Below are positions 6,779 through 16,687 of a DNA stretch of 64,000 nt, piece by piece; position 1 is the first letter of the stretch, and the number at the start of each line of letters is the position of its first letter. Location of the stretch: the NCBI GenBank assembly GCA_017550025.1, contig JAFYLU010000084.1, positions 27,695-91,694 of the forward strand, written 5' to 3'. The translations under genes were made by a program, and so were the position numbers. The notes below the pieces were generated by a model that saw only the letters and a program-made list of their open reading frames with translations, had not been told where the DNA came from and did not search any database. The stretch is from Bacteroidales bacterium (lineage in GTDB: Bacteria > Bacteroidota > Bacteroidia > Bacteroidales > UBA932).

Positions 6779-7501
6779 ATGACAAACGAAATACTGATAC
6801 TTTTATCATTTTTCTTCATTTACGGAGGAGTAGTCCTGTTCTACCGGCTGTTCGGAAAAGACGGACTTCTTGCATTCAGCGTGATCGCGACATTGCTTGC
6901 AAACATTGAAGTCCTCATATTGGTCCGCGCATTCGGTATCGAGATGACTCTCGGAAACGTACTCTTTGCCAGCACCTTCCTTATAACCGACATCCTCAGT
7001 GAGAATCACGGGAAGAAGGACGCAAACAGAGCCGTACTCATCAGTACCTTATGCTCGGTGGTATTCATCGTATTGTCACAGATATGGATCTTGTATACTC
7101 CAAGCGAAAACGACTGGGCCAGCGGGGCTTTCAAGACGATATTCTCAAGCACACCGCGCATCGTATGTGCCTCACTCATAGTCTATCTCGTATCGCAGCT
7201 GGCTGACGTGTGGCTCTATCACAAATGGTGGGACTGGTGCAGGAAGCATTTCGGCGATGAAAGGAAGGGACTTTGGATCAGAAACAACGGATCTACATTG
7301 ATTTCGCAGCTGCTCAACACATTCCTGTACACGTTCCTTGCATTCTACGGAACATACGAAATCAGCACTCTGATTTCCATTTTCATAAGCAGCTATCTAA
7401 TATTTATCATAACCAGCCTTCTGGACACACCATTCGTATACTGGTGCAGAAAGATCGGCACTGACATGAAGTCAAATGGAACAGCCCCAGAAACAAGGTA
7501 A
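6779..7501 (+). CDS. yhhQ: Queuosine precursor transporter (YhhQ/VUT family)
   Basis: This 240-residue integral membrane protein has about six hydrophobic segments and belongs to the VUT/YhhQ family. Family members import preQ0/preQ1 for queuosine modification of tRNA. Family hallmarks are ASTFLITDILSENHGKKDAN (residues about 62-81) and the polar/aromatic SQLADVWLYHKW segment. No queuosine biosynthesis gene is in the window. Its 3' end overlaps clpS by 26 bp, so it is cotranscribed with the N-degron genes. Confidence 0.88.
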   Translation: MTNEILILLSFFFIYGGVVLFYRLFGKDGLLAFSVIATLLANIEVLILVRAFGIEMTLGNVLFASTFLITDILSENHGKKDANRAVLISTLCSVVFIVLSQIWILYTPSENDWASGAFKTIFSSTPRIVCASLIVYLVSQLADVWLYHKWWDWCRKHFGDERKGLWIRNNGSTLISQLLNTFLYTFLAFYGTYEISTLISIFISSYLIFIITSLLDTPFVYWCRKIGTDMKSNGTAPETR

Positions 7502-7778
7502 GACCAGTCTCAAGACGGAGCCGAGAGAACCGAAAAGATACAAGGTCATTGTGCTTAACGATGACTACACGACATTCGAATTCGTCATTTCGGTAATGAT
7601 GACCGTGTTCCTCAAGACATATGAGGAGGCATGCCATATTGCCGAAACCACTCACATCCATCAGAAAGCCACTGTAGGGACATATACCCTCGACATTGCG
7701 AAGAGCAGGGTCGCCAAGGCCACTGCAATGGCCAGAGCCGAAGGTTATCCGCTCCGCTTTGATGTCCAGGCGGAATAG
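7476..7778 (+). CDS. clpS: ATP-dependent Clp protease adaptor ClpS
   Basis: This 100-residue adaptor delivers N-degron substrates to ClpA. The fold signature is clear: YKVIVLNDDYTTFEFVISV near residues 22-40 and the HxxG-like A-T-V-G-T-Y-T segment, followed by the ClpA-contacting helix. The first 18 or so residues are a flexible basic and polar extension. It overlaps the transporter gene by 26 bp and precedes clpA by 23 bp. The gene order clpS-clpA-aat makes the functional assignment firm. Confidence 0.95.
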   Translation: MEQPQKQGKTSLKTEPREPKRYKVIVLNDDYTTFEFVISVMMTVFLKTYEEACHIAETTHIHQKATVGTYTLDIAKSRVAKATAMARAEGYPLRFDVQAE

Positions 7779-7801
7779 TTTCCCAAATTAAAATATATCA
7801 A

Positions 7802-9979
7802 ATGCCTATCAATCAGACAACTAATGTAACCACAGCCCTCATGGAGGCTTATGGAATCGCTACGGAAAAAAGGAACGAGTTCCTTACGCCGGAGCACCTG
7901 CTGGCCGGTTACCTCAAGGACAAGGACTTCTGGGATGCATTCTGCCGATGCGGAAATGCAGAACTCCTTGAAGGTAAGATATATGAACATCTGAACAGCC
8001 TTGAGGCAGTACCTGAAGACATGGAACTGTCAATCGAGATTTCGGCGCAGCTGCAGGAAGTATTTGAAACTGCTGCAGAAACGGCGGAAAGTGCCGGAGT
8101 CAATACTGTGCAGACTCATCACATGATCTTTGCATTCTTCAGACTTGAAGACTCATATGCAAGGTTTCACCTCGAGAACTGCCTGACATGCAGCATCCCG
8201 GATTTTCTCAACTCGCTGATAGGCATATCATCGGAAGAAACATCTGAGACCGTGGAGAGCAGCGAGAAATGGATCAGGTACTTCAAGCCACTCAAACAGG
8301 TGAACAGACTCATAGGCCGTACCGAAGAGACCGCAAGGATTCTCCGCGTGTTATGCAGGAAGACAAGGAGCAACGTGCTTCTCGCCGGAGGACGCGGATG
8401 CGGCAAGACAGCAGTCGCAGCCGGAGTAGCCGCTCTTCTTGAAAAAGGGAAGGTACCGGAAAGACTGAAGGGATCTGCATTGATGGAGCTGAATGTGAGC
8501 ATGCTGCTCAGCGGCACACAATACAGGGGCGACCTTGAAGGCAGAATACAGACTATCATGGATTCCGTAGCGCAGGAGGGCGGAATCATCGTATATATCG
8601 ACGAGCTCCGTTCGCTTGGCGGACTGAACAGGATGGACGATGGCTCAAAGGATATCCTGAGCCTCCTCATTCCATATTTCAAGTCCGGTTCCGTGAAATT
8701 CATCGTTTCTGCTACTCAGGAAGAAATCAAGAAGCTCGGATCGCATGATTCAGGAGCATTGGGACTCTTCCGCCAGATTGACATAGACGAACCTGGAGAT
8801 GCCGATGCGGAAAAGATACTGAAGGGCATACTCCCCGATCTTGCTGAACATCACAAGGTAAAATATGACAAGGACACGGTGGCACATGCCGTAGCCATGA
8901 GCAGGAGATACATGCTCGACCGCTGCCTGCCAGACAAGGGAATCGATCTTCTGGATGAGGCAGGAGCATATGCAGAGACACATGGGGAGGAAAAGGTCAG
9001 CAGGAAGACAGTGGATCTGGCCCTGGCCGATATCTGCAGGATTGATGTGGAAGCATCTTCAAGCGACACGAAAGAGGATCTGTTCAATATGGAAGAGCGT
9101 CTCGGCAAGAAGATCTTCGGACAGCAGAAAGCCATCAAGGCAGTTACGGAAGCAATACTCATGTCAAAGGCCGGTCTTCTCGACAGCAACAAGACCATCG
9201 GAAACTTCCTTTTCGTAGGTCCTACAGGAGTCGGCAAGACAGAACTCTCCAAAGTCCTCGCGCAGCAGCTTCATGTTCCGCTTCACCGTTTCGACATGAG
9301 CGAATACTCTGAAAAGCATGCAGTTGCAAAGCTCATCGGTTCTCCTGCCGGATATGTCGGATATGACGATGGAGGAATCCTGACAGACACTGTCCGCAAG
9401 AATCCATATTGCGTGCTGCTGCTCGACGAGATAGAAAAGGCTCATGAAGACATATATAATCTGTTGCTTCAGGTGATGGACTACGCCGTCATCACTGACA
9501 ACAAGGGTCGCAAGGTAGATTTCAGGAACGTCATCCTCATCATGACATCGAACGCCGGAGCACGCTATGCACACAAGGCTTCTGTAGGTTTCGAAAGAAA
9601 GGTGAATGCAGGAGAGGCGATGGCAAAGGAGGTCAAGAATGTATTCGCACCTGAATTCATCAACAGGCTCACCTCTGTCGTCGTCTTCAATGACATGGAC
9701 AGAAAGATGGCTGGACTTATCCTCGAGGACAAGATCAGCAAGCTGGAGTCTAGACTGCTGGCCAGAAAGGTAAGACTCCAGATTGAGCCGGAAGCATTCG
9801 ACAAGCTTCTCGACGAAGGCTTTTCACCGGAATACGGAGCAAGGGAGATAGAACGCGTCCTCAACGCAAGACTCACACCGCTCCTTATGAGGGAGATACT
9901 CTTCGGCAAGCACAAAGGAGGCTTCAAGGCGACAGTAAGGACAACAGAAGAAGGATTCATCATACATACAGAGAAATGA
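7802..9979 (+). CDS. clpA: ClpA, Hsp100 unfoldase of ClpAP
   Basis: This is a 725-residue double-ring AAA+ unfoldase. It has a Clp N domain (about residues 1-145), NBD1 with Walker A GGRGCGKT (about 196-203) and Walker B IIVYIDE, and NBD2 with GPTGVGKTE (about 473) and VLLLDEIEKAH. The SVGF segment in NBD2 corresponds to the ClpP-docking IGF/IGL loop. A ClpB-type middle coiled coil is absent, which separates it from ClpB and fits ClpA. It shares a 4-bp ATGA overlap with aat. The ClpP partner is encoded at 18132-18800. Confidence 0.94.
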   Translation: MPINQTTNVTTALMEAYGIATEKRNEFLTPEHLLAGYLKDKDFWDAFCRCGNAELLEGKIYEHLNSLEAVPEDMELSIEISAQLQEVFETAAETAESAGVNTVQTHHMIFAFFRLEDSYARFHLENCLTCSIPDFLNSLIGISSEETSETVESSEKWIRYFKPLKQVNRLIGRTEETARILRVLCRKTRSNVLLAGGRGCGKTAVAAGVAALLEKGKVPERLKGSALMELNVSMLLSGTQYRGDLEGRIQTIMDSVAQEGGIIVYIDELRSLGGLNRMDDGSKDILSLLIPYFKSGSVKFIVSATQEEIKKLGSHDSGALGLFRQIDIDEPGDADAEKILKGILPDLAEHHKVKYDKDTVAHAVAMSRRYMLDRCLPDKGIDLLDEAGAYAETHGEEKVSRKTVDLALADICRIDVEASSSDTKEDLFNMEERLGKKIFGQQKAIKAVTEAILMSKAGLLDSNKTIGNFLFVGPTGVGKTELSKVLAQQLHVPLHRFDMSEYSEKHAVAKLIGSPAGYVGYDDGGILTDTVRKNPYCVLLLDEIEKAHEDIYNLLLQVMDYAVITDNKGRKVDFRNVILIMTSNAGARYAHKASVGFERKVNAGEAMAKEVKNVFAPEFINRLTSVVVFNDMDRKMAGLILEDKISKLESRLLARKVRLQIEPEAFDKLLDEGFSPEYGAREIERVLNARLTPLLMREILFGKHKGGFKATVRTTEEGFIIHTEK

Positions 9980-10620
9980 TATTCCAGCTTGACAATGCTA
10001 CAGAATTTCCGGATCCGAGATACGGAAACAAAGACGGTTTCTATGCAGTAGGAGGAAAGATAAGCCCCGAGAGCCTTGCAAAGGCATATCCCATGGGTAT
10101 ATTCCCCTACTACGCTTTCCGTCGCGAGCCTGTCATATGGTGGGCTCCGCAAGAGAGATTCGTGATATTTCCGAATGAGATCCATGTCTCTCATTCCATG
10201 CGTAACATGATGAACAAGAACCGCTACCGCTGTACAATAAATGAAGCTTTCCCGGAAGTTATCGCTGGGTGTGCCTGCACAGACAAGAGAATAGAAGACG
10301 AAGATGCATGGCTCGGACCGGACCTTGTGGACATCTGGCTGGAACTGAATGAGATGGGACTTGCCAAAAGTGTGGAGGTATGGGAAGATGATGTCCTTGT
10401 CGGCGGGCTCTACGGATTCACATGCGGAAGGGCATTCATAGGGGACAGCATGTTCTCACTGGTTCCCAATGCATCTAAACTGGCAATGATCCACCTTGCG
10501 AGGCACATGGAAGCCATGGGAGGAGGAATCATCGACTGTCAGCTGGAAACACCGCATCTCAAATCGATGGGCGCACGATATATCTCTTATGACGAGTATC
10601 TGAAATTCACCAGATCATAA
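9976..10620 (+). CDS. aat: Leucyl/phenylalanyl-tRNA-protein transferase
   Basis: This 214-residue transferase adds Leu or Phe to proteins with N-terminal Lys or Arg, creating N-degrons read by ClpS. Typical family segments are FPDPRYGNKDGFYAVGG near the N-terminus, YPMGIFPYY, and the WWAPQERFVIFP motif. GGLYGFTCGRAFIGDSMFS is also conserved. It overlaps clpA by 4 bp and converges with the threonine aldolase gene, overlapping it by 6 bp at the 3' ends. Confidence 0.95.
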   Translation: MIFQLDNATEFPDPRYGNKDGFYAVGGKISPESLAKAYPMGIFPYYAFRREPVIWWAPQERFVIFPNEIHVSHSMRNMMNKNRYRCTINEAFPEVIAGCACTDKRIEDEDAWLGPDLVDIWLELNEMGLAKSVEVWEDDVLVGGLYGFTCGRAFIGDSMFSLVPNASKLAMIHLARHMEAMGGGIIDCQLETPHLKSMGARYISYDEYLKFTRS

Positions 10621-11663: not shown

Positions 11664-12422
11664 TTACTTCTTCTCGACAAGCCTTACCTCATAGAGCTTC
11701 GGCCAGTTCTTTCCTGTCAGGTATATCTTTCCGTCTGCAGGGTTGTATGCGATTCCGTTGAGGACATCTGTTGTAGGAGTCCGTAACTCTTTAGGCAGCA
11801 AGCCTCTGCAGTCTACGATACCCTGTATCCTTCCGTCCTTAGGATTGATGATCACGATTTCATCAGATGTATAGACATTCGCCCATATCTTTCCGTCAAT
11901 GTACTCAAGCTCATTGATAAAACGAATCGGCCTGTCCTCTATGGTAACCCTGACCTTGCGGTCAAGAGCAAAGTTCTCATTCATGAAATAAAGATAGGCG
12001 GAACCGTCTGAAGCTATAAGTTGCTTTCCGTCTGTTGTGATGCCCCAGCCCTCACGAGGATACTTCCAGCTTGACTTGTATTCGAGGGTTTCTGCATCAT
12101 AGACAAAGGCCATCTTCGTCTCCCAGGTGAGGATGTAAAGATTGCCTTTCCACATCACCGAACCTTCAACAAAATACTTGTCATCAAAGTCCAGCCTCTT
12201 CAAAGCCTTGCCTGTCTGCATATCTACCATCCTGAAGGTAGACTTTCCGTGCAGACCGGTACTCTCGTACAACTGGCCTTCATGGAAGAAAAGACCTTGT
12301 GTATAGGATTCTGTATCATGCGGATATTCGGCCACAACTTCCAGACTATATTCCTTCACTTGCGCATCAGCACACGAAAGAATGAGAAGTGACATCAATA
12401 TTATCGTAAAAACGGTTCTCAT
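11664..12422 (-). CDS. Secreted glutaminyl-peptide cyclotransferase
   Basis: This 252-residue beta-propeller-type glutamine cyclotransferase forms N-terminal pyroglutamate on exported proteins. The N-terminus carries an export signal with a possible lipobox (L-I-L-S-C, Cys17), although cleavage after A-D-A to expose Gln is also possible. Family features are YTQGLFF, YESTGLHGKS, WGITTDG and the ELEYIDGKIWANVY segment near the C-terminus. In Bacteroidetes many exported proteins start with Gln after signal cleavage, which fits the role. It ends 24 bp upstream (in genomic order) of the aldolase start and may be cotranscribed with it. Confidence 0.88.
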   Translation of the reverse strand: MRTVFTIILMSLLILSCADAQVKEYSLEVVAEYPHDTESYTQGLFFHEGQLYESTGLHGKSTFRMVDMQTGKALKRLDFDDKYFVEGSVMWKGNLYILTWETKMAFVYDAETLEYKSSWKYPREGWGITTDGKQLIASDGSAYLYFMNENFALDRKVRVTIEDRPIRFINELEYIDGKIWANVYTSDEIVIINPKDGRIQGIVDCRGLLPKELRTPTTDVLNGIAYNPADGKIYLTGKNWPKLYEVRLVEKK

Positions 12423-12488
12423 CAGTGTTTTTATTCATATATCAGAACACAAAATTAGCTAAAAAAAACAATTTGAGAAAATAATCAC

Positions 12489-12496
12489 TAACTTTG
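12489..12496 (+). promoter_or_regulatory. -7 promoter box for the steroid reductase gene
   Basis: TAACTTTG matches TAnnTTTG and is 21 bp before the ATG at 12518. Because the longer open frame would begin inside this box (TTG at 12494), the box also supports the ATG start. Confidence 0.6.
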
Positions 12497-12517: not shown

Positions 12518-13297
12518 ATGAGTACATACTATATTATAATGTCATGCATGGCCGTAATGGCTGTAATAGTATTCGTAGCCCTCTTCTATTTCAAGGCAGG
12601 CTACGGATATCTGTCCACTTCCAACTGGGGACCGAAGATAGGCAACAAGACAGCATGGGTACTGATGGAGGCCCCGGCATTCCTGTTTCTTCTCTACTAT
12701 ACAGTCCGTTTTGCCTTGTCCGGAGCAGATACCGGCAACTCAAAGGTCGTGCTCTACATCATGGCCGGACTTTACCTTCTCCATTACTTCCAGAGGTCAT
12801 TCATCTTTCCTCTTCTTATGAGAGGAAAGAGCAAGATGCCGATTGCAATCATGCTCATGGGACTGGTATTCAACACATTGAATGCTTATCTCATCGGAGG
12901 ATGGCTCTATAGTGAAGCTCCTGCAGGCATGTACGGAATCAACTGGCTGTGGAGCCCCCAGTTCATTACAGGTGTCATTGTCTTCTTTGCCGGAATGATC
13001 ATCAACCTTCATTCCGATCATGTGATCCGCAATCTCCGCAAGCCAGGAGACACAAAGCACTACATTCCGCGCAAAGGACTTTACAGATATGTGACTTCGG
13101 CAAACTATTTCGGAGAATTTACCGAATGGACAGGATACGCCATCCTTACATGGTCACCTGCCGGACTGCTTTTCGCGATCTGGACTTTCGCAAACCTCGG
13201 CCCGCGTGCTAAATCCCTTACCGAGAAATACGAGAGTGAATTCGGCGACGAGTACAGAAAACTGAACAAGAAACATCTCATACCATTCATATGGTAA
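12518..13297 (+). CDS. SRD5A-type 3-oxo-5-alpha-steroid 4-dehydrogenase (5-alpha-reductase)
   Basis: This 259-residue polytopic membrane protein strongly resembles animal steroid 5-alpha-reductases, not just the broad DUF1295 group. Residues matching the SRD5A active site are Glu51 in M-E-A-P, Tyr90 in LLHYFQRSF, HSDH at 166-169 followed by NLRKPGDT, and ANYFGE (195-200) with E203-W204. It should reduce the delta-4 bond of 3-oxo steroids or bile acids to the 5-alpha form using NADPH. It precedes an old yellow enzyme gene by 44 bp, a pairing known from bile-acid-modifying Bacteroidetes. The native substrate is inferred. Confidence 0.88.
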   Translation: MSTYYIIMSCMAVMAVIVFVALFYFKAGYGYLSTSNWGPKIGNKTAWVLMEAPAFLFLLYYTVRFALSGADTGNSKVVLYIMAGLYLLHYFQRSFIFPLLMRGKSKMPIAIMLMGLVFNTLNAYLIGGWLYSEAPAGMYGINWLWSPQFITGVIVFFAGMIINLHSDHVIRNLRKPGDTKHYIPRKGLYRYVTSANYFGEFTEWTGYAILTWSPAGLLFAIWTFANLGPRAKSLTEKYESEFGDEYRKLNKKHLIPFIW

Positions 13298-13341
13298 TAA
13301 CATCATCCCTGTCTTAAAAAGGAGATGAACAATAAATAATT

Positions 13342-14598
13342 ATGAGCGAATTATTTACACCATACAAGATCGGCCCGATAGAGTTGAGGAACCGCACCAT
13401 CAGATCTGCGGCATTCGAGGCCATGTGTCCAGGTCAGAGGCCTTCAAAGGAACTCTTCGACTACCACACCGCTGTTGCGCGTGGAGGAATCGGCATGACT
13501 ACCGTCGCTTATGCTGCAGTATGCAGGAGCGGCCTTTCATTTGAAAACCAGCTCTGGATGCGCGAGGAGATTGTTCCGGAGCTTAAGAAGCTTACTGACG
13601 CAATCCATGCTGAAGGGGCAAAGGCATCTATACAGCTCGGGCACTGCGGCAACATGTCGCACAGAAGCATATGCGGATGCATGCCATACGGAGCAAGCCG
13701 AGGCTTCAACCTCTACTCCCCTACCTTCGTACAGAAGATGAACATGGAGCAGATCAATGAGGTCGCTGACGCATACGGAAGAGCAGTAGAACTTGCCATA
13801 GAGGCTGGATTTGATGCAATCGAGATCCATGCAGGTCACGGATACCTCATATCGCAGTTCCTTTCTCCTTATACAAATCACCGTCGTGACGAGTTCGGAG
13901 GAAGTCTCGACAACAGGATGCGCTTCATGAGAATGTGTGTAAGCAAGGCTGTTGCTGCCGGTAAGGGAAAGATAGCTCTCTTTGCAAAGCTCAACACCCG
14001 TGACGGATTCAAGGGAGGCCAGGAGACAGACGAGCTGATCGAGGTTGCAAAGGAGCTCCGCAATCTTGGTGTGGAAGCGATCGTGCTTTCCGGAGGCTTC
14101 GTAAGCCGTCACCCTCAATATGTGATGCGAGGACAGTTCCCGGTAAAGGCCATCGTTCATTATTTCCCATGGAGCAAATGGTGGCTGAAGGCTGGAGTGG
14201 GACTGGCTGGAAAGATAGTAGCTCCGACAGTACCTTTCAAGAAGCTTTTCTTCATGGAGGATGCGCTTAAGTTCCGTGAGGCCATGCCGGATTTCCCATT
14301 CGTATATGTAGGAGGAGTTGTGTCGCGCGAAACTGCAGATGAAGCTATCGGAAAGGGGTTCCCGATGATACAGATGGGACGCGCCGTACTCGAGGACACG
14401 GATTTCGTGAACAAGATGAAGGCAGACGAACATCACTGCAGCGGATGCACCCACAGCAACTTCTGTATCGGAAGAATGTATTCGAAGTCAATGCAGTGCC
14501 ATAAGCATTGCGAGGACATCACACCGGCTTTAAGAAAAGAAGTCGAGCGTCTTGACAGACAGAACGACAAGATGGAGAGGAAGCTCGGATATAAATAG
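13342..14598 (+). CDS. Old yellow enzyme family NADH:flavin oxidoreductase, possible 5-beta-reductase
   Basis: This 418-residue TIM-barrel flavoprotein of the NADH:flavin oxidoreductase family is related to BaiCD/BaiH and 2,4-dienoyl-CoA reductase N-domains. Motifs include FTPYKIGPIELRNR at the start, HAGHGYLISQFLSPYTN with NHRRDEFGG, and a C-terminal Cys cluster (C-x2-C-x6-C, then C-x3-C) suited to a 4Fe-4S centre. The separate FAD/NAD domain of BaiCD is absent, so it is a short form. Cotranscription with the 5-alpha-reductase suggests stereo-complementary steroid ring A reduction or dehydrogenation. A general enoate reductase role cannot be excluded. Confidence 0.85.
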   Translation: MSELFTPYKIGPIELRNRTIRSAAFEAMCPGQRPSKELFDYHTAVARGGIGMTTVAYAAVCRSGLSFENQLWMREEIVPELKKLTDAIHAEGAKASIQLGHCGNMSHRSICGCMPYGASRGFNLYSPTFVQKMNMEQINEVADAYGRAVELAIEAGFDAIEIHAGHGYLISQFLSPYTNHRRDEFGGSLDNRMRFMRMCVSKAVAAGKGKIALFAKLNTRDGFKGGQETDELIEVAKELRNLGVEAIVLSGGFVSRHPQYVMRGQFPVKAIVHYFPWSKWWLKAGVGLAGKIVAPTVPFKKLFFMEDALKFREAMPDFPFVYVGGVVSRETADEAIGKGFPMIQMGRAVLEDTDFVNKMKADEHHCSGCTHSNFCIGRMYSKSMQCHKHCEDITPALRKEVERLDRQNDKMERKLGYK

Positions 14599-14612: not shown

Positions 14613-14944
14613 TAGGTAGAACGCTTCTGTCGCTGATTTTATATCAGAGGAAAGTCCGGACTGGGTAGGGCGACCTGCTGTGGAAAGCACAGATGGGAGT
14701 AATTTTATGAATGCCGTAACAGAAAACAAACCGCCCGCAAGGGTAAGGGTGAAACCGTGAGGTAAGAGCTCACGACGCCATATGGCGACATATGACGGTG
14801 ACGGCACCAGGTCCAGCAAGACCATGTATACTGGCATGATTCACGCTTCGGCATGAATCGAAAGGGCTGCCCGCTCTTTGTCAGGGGGTAGGTTGCGAAG
14901 ATAAATGACAGATTAAAACAGAACCCGGCTTACGGTTCTGCCTA
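14613..14944 (+). ncRNA. rnpB: RNase P RNA, class A
   Basis: The 332-nt sequence has the conserved RNase P RNA landmarks in order: AGAGGAAAGTCCGGACT near 14646, ACAGAAAACAAACCGCCC near 14719, GGGTAAGGGTGAAACCG near 14740, and the 3' GGTTGCGAAGATAAATGACA region near 14890. The ends TAGGTAGAAC and GTTCTGCCTA pair to form P1. It begins only 14 nt after the oxidoreductase stop, with no obvious promoter of its own, and ends at a terminator. Confidence 0.96.
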
Positions 14945-14950
14945 TTGCAC

Positions 14951-14979
14951 AAGGGTTGGCTTCGTCCAGCCCTTTTTTA
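14951..14979 (+). terminator. Terminator of rnpB
   Basis: AAGGGTTGG pairs with CCAGCCCTT (one G-U) around a short loop and is followed by a run of T. It lies immediately after the RNase P RNA. Confidence 0.85.
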
Positions 14980-15010
14980 TTTGTGCATATTGATTCTCAT
15001 TCAAATGATG

Positions 15011-15018
15011 TATCTTTG
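15011..15018 (+). promoter_or_regulatory. -7 promoter box for the radical SAM gene
   Basis: TATCTTTG lies 7 bp before the ATG at 15026, with ATTG 18 bp upstream (14989-14992). This gives an almost leaderless transcript and argues against the earlier in-frame starts. Confidence 0.55.
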
Positions 15019-15025
15019 CAGGCAC

Positions 15026-16687
15026 ATGAAAATCCTCTGGCTAGACATAAACAGTTCATACTCCCATTCATCGGTAGCCCTGCCTGCGATTCATGCACAG
15101 GTTCAGGACAGAAAGGAATGGGAATGGTGCGTGGTGCGCGGCACTATCAATGATAATCCCGGAAGCATAGCTGCTGCAGTTGCAGAGCATCAGCCTGATG
15201 TGATCGCGGCCACATTCTGGCTTTTCACCCATCAGATGCAGATAGAGGTGCTTTCCCGCGCCGTGCAACTGATTGACGGAGCGAAGATTGTGTGCGGCGG
15301 CCCAGAATTCCTTGGTGACAACGAATCTTTTCTCCGCAATCACAGCTTTATTACAGCTGTAATAAGAGGAGAAGGAGAAAGAGCATTACCGGAATTCCTG
15401 ACTGTCATGGAAGACAGCCCGAACTGGGAGAAGGTGGAAGGCCTGTGCTGGATCGGCAGCAAGGACGGCAGTTACCATGACAACGGAACAGCCCGTGTTG
15501 CAGACTTCGCCTCATTGAGATACCCGGAAGAAAGCACGTTCTTCAACTGGGAGAAGCCTTTCGTACAGCTGGAGACCACCAGAGGTTGCTTCAACACATG
15601 CGCATTCTGCGTAAGCGGAGGAGAAAAGCCGGTCAGGTATCAGAGCATCAGCCAGGTAGCAGCGAGACTTGAAAAAATTTGTGCCCATGGAATAAAGGAC
15701 ATCAGGGTTCTGGACAGGACATTCAACTACGACATAGACCGCGCATGCGAGATGCTGGGCCTGTTCGCGCAGTATGAAGGAAAGATGCGGTTCCACCTTG
15801 AGATTCATCCTTCTCTTATCTCCGGAGCACTGAAGGAAAATCTGGAGCGAATGCCTGAAGGCCTTCTTCATCTTGAAGCCGGAATCCAGAGTCTTGACAG
15901 CAAGGTCCTCGAAGAAAGCGGAAGAAGAGGAAGCCTTGACTCATCACTCAAGGGACTGGAATACCTCTGTTCATCGTCCAACCTGCAGACACATGCCGAC
16001 CTGATAGCCGGACTCCCGGAATACACCTTGGATATGCTCCATTCAGACATCGCAAGACTTGTTGCTATGGGAGTTGACGAGCTTCAGATCGAATCACTCA
16101 AGGTCCTGCCAGGAACCCGTATGAGGAGTGAGGCGAGGGAAAAAGGACTGAAGTTCTCCCCTATGCCTCCTTACGAGATACTTCAGACTCCGGTGATGTC
16201 CCCAGGTGAAATCAGAAAGGCAATGCAGATTTCGAGGATGATCGATCTCTATTACAATTCAACCGCATGGCAGAAGGTCACAAGAAAGATGATATGCGAC
16301 CACCCGGGATTTGCAGAAGAATTCACCGGATACCTCCATGAGATGATGGTGCTGAATTCTCCGGTCAGCCTTGAAAGGCGAGGCATCATATTGTATCAGT
16401 ATTGCAAGACCCATCACCCGGAGATGGTTACCGACATCACGGTTGCATGGATTCAGGCCGGATTCTCCCTGATGAAGGAACCTGCCGGCAAGACCGTCAA
16501 AATCAAACACCTCGATGCGTTCCTAAAAGAGAATGACTTATGCATGTCTGCAGAATACGGACAGGCCTCACCTACCCACCGCTATTACCTGCTGACCTCA
16601 TCAGACAGGCTCATCCTTTTCGGCTACGATTCGGAAAATCACCAGCCCGCACCAGTATTCATGGCATCTCTCTCCCCTATTCTATAG
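15026..16687 (+). CDS. B12-binding-domain radical SAM protein, DUF4080 type
   Basis: This 553-residue protein begins MKILWLDINSSYSHSS. A longer frame exists but would start inside the rnpB end and terminator. Residues 1-130 resemble a B12-binding domain. The radical SAM cluster is C-F-N-T-C-A-F-C near residue 192, preceded by L-E-T-T-R-G. The C-terminal third matches DUF4080. Family members are unassigned enzymes. The lack of an obvious D-x-H-x-x-G in the B12 domain suggests that cobalamin may be bound weakly or not at all. No cotranscribed gene hints at a substrate. Confidence 0.85.
   Translation: MKILWLDINSSYSHSSVALPAIHAQVQDRKEWEWCVVRGTINDNPGSIAAAVAEHQPDVIAATFWLFTHQMQIEVLSRAVQLIDGAKIVCGGPEFLGDNESFLRNHSFITAVIRGEGERALPEFLTVMEDSPNWEKVEGLCWIGSKDGSYHDNGTARVADFASLRYPEESTFFNWEKPFVQLETTRGCFNTCAFCVSGGEKPVRYQSISQVAARLEKICAHGIKDIRVLDRTFNYDIDRACEMLGLFAQYEGKMRFHLEIHPSLISGALKENLERMPEGLLHLEAGIQSLDSKVLEESGRRGSLDSSLKGLEYLCSSSNLQTHADLIAGLPEYTLDMLHSDIARLVAMGVDELQIESLKVLPGTRMRSEAREKGLKFSPMPPYEILQTPVMSPGEIRKAMQISRMIDLYYNSTAWQKVTRKMICDHPGFAEEFTGYLHEMMVLNSPVSLERRGIILYQYCKTHHPEMVTDITVAWIQAGFSLMKEPAGKTVKIKHLDAFLKENDLCMSAEYGQASPTHRYYLLTSSDRLILFGYDSENHQPAPVFMASLSPIL

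Follow-up and report, generated by a model that had tools for sequence, protein, structure and literature searches.

A cluster of Bacteroidota genes for a steroid 5α-reductase (5AR), a 5β-reductase (5BR), and a 3β-hydroxysteroid dehydrogenase (3β-HSDH), for isoallo-bile acids, was reportedly described by Sato in 2021. Bacteroidetes clusters encode these same three enzymes (PMC12697870), and the 5AR gene of Parabacteroides merdae is clustered with a predicted 3β-HSDH and with a BaiCD/BaiH-like NADH:flavin oxidoreductase that is hypothesized to be the 5β-reductase; disruption of the P. merdae 5AR gene abolishes the formation of derivatives of allolithocholic acid (alloLCA) (PMC10382948). IsoalloLCA and other flat (allo) bile acids promote regulatory T cells, according to a review, and inhibit Gram-positive pathogens at micromolar levels (PMC10382948).

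Here we analyze a pair of neighboring genes, for a 5AR and for an old yellow enzyme (OYE), in a 64,000-nucleotide stretch of Bacteroidales DNA (G000:C91:27695-91694), termed the window throughout, which comes from a genome that is 83.5% complete with 6.4% contamination. Judging from protein families, gene order, and relatives, we consider it probable that the two genes form a single transcription unit, whose enzymes remodel 3-oxo steroids at the junction of rings A and B; the steroids in question are most likely bile acids that arrive in the hindgut. Systems of this kind have already been published; the change in arrangement seen here is lineage-wide and new. Also new are the distribution of accompanying dehydrogenases across loci, a four-gene form of the kit, an unlinked dehydrogenase in the window's lineage, and the co-occurrence of 5AR with genes of the choloylglycine-hydrolase family.

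The gene pair and its published counterparts

On the forward strand of the window, the 5AR gene (12518-13297, with its ATG at 12518 and its stop at 13297; 259 aa) is followed, after a spacer of 44 bp (13298-13341), by the OYE gene (13342-14598; 418 aa). Our re-reading of both open reading frames (ORFs) reproduced exactly the coordinates and the gap given in an earlier sequence-only reading of this DNA; in many close relatives, the two ORFs share 1 base or are separated by only a few. Among 80 relatives kept from a species-level genome collection, the best, at up to 90% identity, are Bacteroidales metagenome-assembled genomes (MAGs), mostly of ruminant hindgut. Next, at 70 to 76% identity, are relatives in Candidatus Cryptobacteroides (faecigallinarum, intestinavium, and caccocaballi), and the source organism is probably a Cryptobacteroides or close to it.

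A record of Phocaeicola massiliensis encodes a 5AR, an OYE, and a short-chain dehydrogenase/reductase (SDR) in the same order, with window identities of 52% for 5AR and 62% for OYE. The 5AR and OYE orthologues, ordered as in this P. massiliensis kit, are what the window shares with the Bacteroidota cluster for isoallo-bile acids (P. merdae, Bacteroides dorei); its lineage differs in having no SDR gene found beside the pair, one SDR type (SDR1) being unlinked and the other (SDR2) not found. To judge by orthology, the window pair is a member of the Bacteroidota 5AR/5BR/HSDH kit already published, an identity proposed at the outset and now backed by the orthologues in the named Phocaeicola cluster and by the 5AR tree described below. 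The 5AR gene adjoins an orthologous OYE gene, and no HSDH candidate is present in the cluster, either in the window or in 44 near loci with OYE, so the window locus is a variant of the kit.

Coupling of 5AR and OYE across genomes

The comparison covered the 80 best loci from a scan of the genome collection, 45 termed near and 35 termed far, together with 149 genomes of the window's family. The 5AR and OYE genes are adjacent and on the same strand in 77 of the 80 loci, an adjacency beyond chance. Of the remaining three, L094 ends ahead of OYE and the other two are reordered: the permuted four-gene order OYE-SDR1-SDR2-5AR is found in L129, a goat omasum MAG, and in L138, the Tb.RUG.96 MAG.

Matches at E ≤ 0.001 occur in 62 (5AR) and 58 (OYE) of the 149 family genomes. 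With presence cut-offs that were fixed after the lists had been seen (1e-20 for 5AR, 1e-40 for choloylglycine hydrolase, and 1e-25 for SDR1), 60 of the 149 genomes have a strong 5AR (E < 1e-20), and 54 of these 60 also have an OYE match. An OYE match without a 5AR match is found in four genomes, strong in G001 and G044 and weak in G043 and G101. Since there are 5AR genomes without OYE as well as OYE genomes without 5AR, the pair is usual and not obligatory. Two of the OYE-less genomes, G106 and G117, have a 5AR-SDR2 form of the kit. Among loci drawn from the order, OYE is nearby in 19 of the 20 with high identity (about 2.2 kb away in L200) versus none of the 20 with low identity.

The 5AR protein

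The 5AR matches PF02544 at 137.7 bits, above the curated cut-off of 22.6. Its nearest solved structures, both matched over the full length, are bacterial PbSRD5A (7c83, 174.9 bits) and human SRD5A2 (7bw1, 133.4 bits), with identities of 39.5% to PbSRD5A and 35.9% to the human SRD5A2 stretch. The family membership first proposed from the sequence holds; the description of the protein as closely resembling animal SRD5A was generous in view of the modest 35.9%. The blocks that had been pointed out are present, namely E51, Y90, N-L-R-K-P-G-D-T at residues 172 to 179, and A-N-Y-F-G-E at residues 195 to 200. The dipeptide M50-E51 (12665-12670, +) corresponds to Q56-E57 of human SRD5A2, the catalytic Glu being kept and Gln being replaced by Met, and Y90 (12785-12787, +) corresponds to its catalytic Y91. 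When the NADPH contacts of PbSRD5A (PMC7815742) are traced onto the window protein, those found to match are N163, D167, R174, N196, Y197, E200, T223, N226, and R230. With the two solved enzymes the window 5AR shares the full-length match, the catalytic Glu and Tyr, and most NADPH contacts; it differs from them in sequence at 36 to 40% identity, in Met for Gln, and in H181 and L234.

The catalytic Glu and Tyr are kept in all 118 5AR rows, and the same 118 have Met at position 50, none showing the Gln of the Q-E-Y motif. Met also replaces Gln in 40 of 40 order-level rows (48 of 48 in the alignment, which contains 8 repeats) and in all 7 full-length rows that a search of the phylum gave, 2 of which repeat order rows. 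Being common to the examined Bacteroidota rows, M50 is their usual state and no defect of the window copy; we rejected it as a mark of an odd or dead window enzyme, as every examined Bacteroidota row has it. With M50 instead of Gln, the window protein is assigned to the SRD5A superfamily, outside the Q-E-Y subgroup. The plant enzyme DET2 likewise has Met. Provided that these enzymes are active, the clade-wide M-E-Y suggests that bacteria do not generally follow the Q-E-Y rule derived from animal enzymes and PbSRD5A; the genetics of P. merdae, whose gene is a presumed orthologue, points to such activity in this clade.

In a 64-row tree, 58 SRD5A-like and 6 DUF1295-like rows are split at 100/100. 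The window 5AR falls in a 32-row clade (100/100) together with the P. massiliensis protein and OYE-linked loci, while PbSRD5A, human SRD5A2 (on a long branch), and 18 further Bacteroidales rows lie outside this clade. The earlier proposal of SRD5A membership had named a position outside that family as grounds for giving it up, and the tree places the protein within the SRD5A side. Three of the 32 members of the OYE-linked clade are without OYE (L188, L189, and L205). Two of them, L188 and L189, are paralogues from a single genome, G149, both on long branches and neither near an OYE gene.

The OYE protein

The OYE is a single-domain protein of the FMN family that matches PF00724 at 178.8 bits (cut-off 27). 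Its top NCBIfam model is BaiCD (NF041087), at 194.3 bits, far under the cut-off of 825, and the match covers mainly positions 3 to 255 of the 642-position model. Residues 1 to 255 resemble YqjM-type old yellow enzymes; a second match to the family profile at the end of the barrel is not significant alone (i-Evalues of 13 and 25 in two alignments). Given the 418-aa length of the protein, the second half of the BaiCD model does not fit.

Residue conservation was assessed in 53 rows that we picked for diversity among the loci. In the active-site block H163-A-G-H166-G-Y168 (13828-13845, +), every one of the 53 rows keeps H163, H166, and Y168, and A23-A-F-E26 and G100-H-C-G-N-M105 are also invariant. 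The C-terminal cysteine region, C366-x2-C369-x5-C375-x10-C386-x3-C390 (14437-14511, +), had been read as a cysteine cluster. All five cysteines are present in the window protein, but three and not four are invariant: C369, C375, and C386 occur in 53 of 53 rows, C366 in 18, and C390 in 22. Iron-sulfur OYEs are marked by a four-cysteine motif. As the OYE rows do not conserve four cysteines, an iron-sulfur center is uncertain here; a non-cysteine or other fourth ligand is possible.

In the Clostridium innocuum 5-beta-reductase, N166 and S171 flank the catalytic Y167, and the bile-acid clade has T or S and E at these places; the source says tyrosine but calls the mutant N166T (PMC12238238). The window positions were mapped onto this signature by counting from the catalytic Tyr, Y168 being taken as Y167 of ci2350. 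With ci2350 and BaiCD of Firmicutes the window OYE thus shares the family and the catalytic Tyr; it differs from them in its length of 418 aa versus the 642-position model, in G167 and Q172, and in the four-cysteine motif, which is not conserved. We regard the protein as a candidate 5β-reductase or Δ4-dehydrogenase, which would reduce or form the Δ4 bond.

Dehydrogenases beside, apart from, and missing from the pair

SDR genes were typed among all ORFs of at least 120 aa, on the same strand and anywhere in the fetched stretch, by the better of two query matches; SDR1 and SDR2 thus name types, whose members are at most putative orthologues. The 35 far loci comprise 27 with SDR1 only, 6 with SDR1 and SDR2, and 2 with neither, one of which (L127) is cut 83 bp past OYE and the other (L107) is a member of the window's clade in the 5AR tree. 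The 20 order loci of high identity divide into 5 with SDR1, 8 with both types, 5 with SDR2, 1 with OYE only, and 1 with 5AR only. At least one SDR therefore accompanies the pair in 51 of the 55 loci outside the near set, and both do so in 14 of the 55; the fullest kit has four genes. Within the near set, no SDR lies beside the pair in 44 of 45 loci, 38 of them with at least 1.5 kb past OYE, and one locus is cut. Six of the far loci (L111, L114, L119, L122, L131, and L136) also have after the SDR a gene of about 611 aa that by eye resembles AMP-binding acyl-CoA ligases; it is possibly a bile-acid-activating enzyme.

The sequence-only reading had noted that the window lacks an HSDH, which left either a reduced set or a partner elsewhere. 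No match to either SDR type at E ≤ 1 was found among the window ORFs of at least 80 aa, in line with that reading, and both of its alternatives apply. Searched with the kit SDR1 P0003, the window's own genome yields an SDR1 match on a separate contig (G000:C24:11120-11911, E 4.3e-38), probably the third kit enzyme. For SDR2, no match at E ≤ 1e-20 was found in this incomplete genome or in the six other two-gene genomes of the genus, which are 98 to 100% complete. All seven genomes of the genus that have just the two genes, the window's among them, carry an SDR1 away from the pair (E 4.3e-38 or better), compared with one of the three pairless genomes (G041, 4.4e-38; the matches in G084 and G096 stay at 1e-11 and 1e-12). 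G129, which is the remaining 5AR genome among the eight of the genus, contains the four kit genes in a single stretch. This complete kit lies at C15:50185-54660, and its 5AR is only 54% identical to that of the window, which suggests replacement by transfer.

In a 63-row SDR tree, the 16 unlinked SDRs, a fetched subset of those listed, form a single clade (100/98) that is nested, together with 15 kit SDR1s, in a 31-row group (99/98). A split at 99/98 sets the kit and unlinked rows, 47 in all, apart from 16 other SDRs; this separation is partly built in, the other rows having been chosen as weaker matches, which is not the case for the nesting of the unlinked rows within the kit rows. A simple loss of the HSDH was rejected, as the unlinked SDR1 is present and groups with the kit SDR1s; read most simply, the data have SDR1 moving out of the cassette a single time, in part of the family, and being retained. 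Linked or unlinked, SDR1 (E < 1e-25) occurs in 49 of the 60 5AR genomes of the family and in 10 of the other 89.

Link to bile and habitat

A gene of the choloylglycine-hydrolase family is found at G000:C91:22033-22968 on the reverse strand, 4.7 kb to the left of the window and some 17 kb from the pair. Its product has by eye a signal-peptide-like start, and its best structure is 2bjf (a choloylglycine hydrolase, 151.7 bits), followed by 2oqc (a penicillin V acylase, 145.3 bits). Physical linkage of this gene was rejected as evidence; in relatives it is mostly on other contigs, so co-occurrence alone was used. A strong match to the family is present in 34 of the 60 5AR genomes versus 3 of the 89 other family genomes, and of 5000 shuffles within genera, with a mean overlap of 30.0, 0.2% reach 34. 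Counting by eye every PF02275 match gives 43 of 60 versus 9 of 89. This co-occurrence supports exposure to bile and does not prove bile acids to be the substrate.

For 21 near loci the title gives a gut site in a ruminant, which is in every case cecum, colon, or rectum; the only other title with a ruminant site is that of L129, from omasum and outside the window's lineage. The ruminant source study comprised 148 samples from the stomach, 111 from the small intestine, and 111 from the large intestine (PMC8199421). In a literature search joining Cryptobacteroides to bile acid, 5α-reductase, or allo-bile, none of the papers listed names Cryptobacteroides.

Proposed pathway and alternative explanations

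In the pathway that we propose, an SDR would oxidize the steroid 3-hydroxyl, and the FMN-family OYE would interconvert the 3-oxo-5β steroid and its Δ4-3-oxo form. The membrane 5AR, with E51 and Y90 polarizing the C3 carbonyl, would then transfer the hydride of NADPH to the α face of C5, giving a flat 3-oxo-5α product, the 3-oxo group of which an SDR would finally reduce. The reaction proposed for 5AR is shared with the bile acid 5α-reductases BaiP and BaiJ of Firmicutes, which are FAD-dependent oxidoreductases distinguished from the membrane-associated Bacteroidetes 5AR (PMC9645264). The sequence itself shows the two families, the catalytic residues, the adjacency, the orthology to the published kit, and the unlinked copy of SDR1; the promoter-like box described below, the co-occurrence with choloylglycine hydrolases, and the hindgut titles of near loci also speak for the pathway. 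We infer the co-transcription of the pair, its substrate, the direction of the OYE, the end product, and a continued service of SDR1 to the pair.

Several observations weigh against this reading. In the 5AR, Met replaces Q56 of the named signature motif Q-E-Y, and the Q56A and Q56L mutants of human SRD5A2 lose activity (PMC7815742). At the NADPH site, H181 stands for a tyrosine and L234 for a histidine; H181, and Leu or Ile for H230, occur in all 28 rows initially labeled clade A by identity. In the OYE, G167 (51 of 53 rows) and Q172 (53 of 53) match neither Firmicutes signature (N/S or T,S/E). Six of the 60 strong-5AR genomes have no OYE match (G048, G077, G089, G100, G106, and G117), and in two of them an SDR2-type gene directly follows 5AR (G106, C67; G117, C50). 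The window genome's own SDR1 is only 33 to 34% identical to the kit SDR1 P0003. Its choloylglycine-hydrolase-family gene scores 204.8 bits, below a curated bile salt hydrolase cut-off of 350 and may encode a bile salt hydrolase or a penicillin V acylase, and 26 of the 60 5AR genomes are without a strong match to that family. The hindgut count of 21 of 21 stands without a genus-level control.

The 26 5AR genomes without a strong choloylglycine-hydrolase match fit an alternative in which the same chemistry is carried out on neutral Δ4-3-ketosteroids or sterols (progestagens, corticoids, cholestenone, plant-sterol enones) and not on bile acids. When three steroids were tested on PbSRD5A, it showed selectivity for progesterone (PMC7815742), and the SRD5A pocket is less conserved than the NADP site, which is read as tracking differing steroid or lipid substrates (PMC7591894). 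The published genetic test in P. merdae, however, used a bile acid (PMC10382948), and the co-occurrence with choloylglycine hydrolases persists within genera; we regard neutral steroids as a rather unlikely substrate.

It is also unlikely, in our estimate, that the OYE acts on another double bond (e.g., Δ6 or Δ1) or enone and leaves 5AR alone to set the ring geometry. The residues G167 and Q172 outside both Firmicutes signatures, the low and partial BaiCD match, and the invariant A-A-F-E and G-H-C-G-N-M blocks would suit such a role, as would the six 5AR genomes that manage without an OYE. Against it, BaiCD is nonetheless the top NCBIfam model, the protein is orthologous to the OYE of the named P. 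massiliensis kit, and the published hypothesis is a 5β-reductase (PMC10382948). That neither enzyme works on host steroids, the substrate being instead a polyprenol, as for SRD5A3 (PMC7815742), an enoyl chain, or some other lipid of endogenous or microbial origin, is very improbable: distant Bacteroidales SRD5A rows are without a nearby OYE (0 of 20) and the kit-bearing L141 is a Paludibacteraceae MAG with no gut in its title, but a core lipid is hard to reconcile with the patchy presence of 5AR (60 of 149 family genomes), the kits contain one or two SDRs, and the related P. merdae kit has bile-acid genetics (PMC10382948).

If the preferred reading, ring remodeling of bile acids by the pair, is correct, an uncultured lineage of animal guts would join the makers of flat bile acids. 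As the partner SDR gene has moved, annotation that relies on a linked HSDH would miss this lineage. The split between SDR1 and SDR2 also lets gene content test the 3α versus the 3β outcome. As a tentative and rather doubtful extension, 5AR-OYE-SDR1-SDR2 may be the ancestral Bacteroidales cassette, its SDRs being opposite 3-HSDHs that would open and close the flattening cycle, with the retained subset setting the end product. The Phocaeicola kit keeps SDR2 alone and, if it behaves like that of B. dorei, ends at isoallo (3β) acids, so SDR2 would be the 3β enzyme; the Cryptobacteroides of animal hindgut, with SDR2 lost and SDR1 relocated, would end at 3-oxo-allo or allo (3α) acids. Were this true, gene content would predict the stereochemistry of a community's flat bile acids.

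Upstream region and neighboring genes

The promoter-like box TAACTTTG (12489-12496, +), 29 bp ahead of the 5AR start codon, conforms to TAnnTTTG, the Bacteroidota −7-type consensus. TAnnTTTG lies 5′ of 5AR in 20 of 20 sequences, in a single aligned block, the comparison comprising the window and 19 of the 45 near loci of our choosing. Back to back with it is a reverse-strand TAATTTTG box (12450-12457, −), whose CAAA is kept in all 20 rows of the alignment. It possibly serves a divergent glutamine cyclotransferase gene (11664-12422).

Downstream, a class A RNase P RNA (RF00010, 182.5 bits) is found at 14613-14948 (+), 14 bp past the OYE stop, and the transcript of the pair may therefore continue into it. 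Its end is overlapped by the longest-ORF start of a radical SAM protein that also has DUF4080 and B12-binding domains (14945-16687, +). Farther upstream, clpS (100 aa), clpA (725 aa), and aat (214 aa), identified by eye, stand in a tight row at 7476-10620 (+); this Bacteroidales genome thus apparently has the whole of a bacterial N-degron operon.

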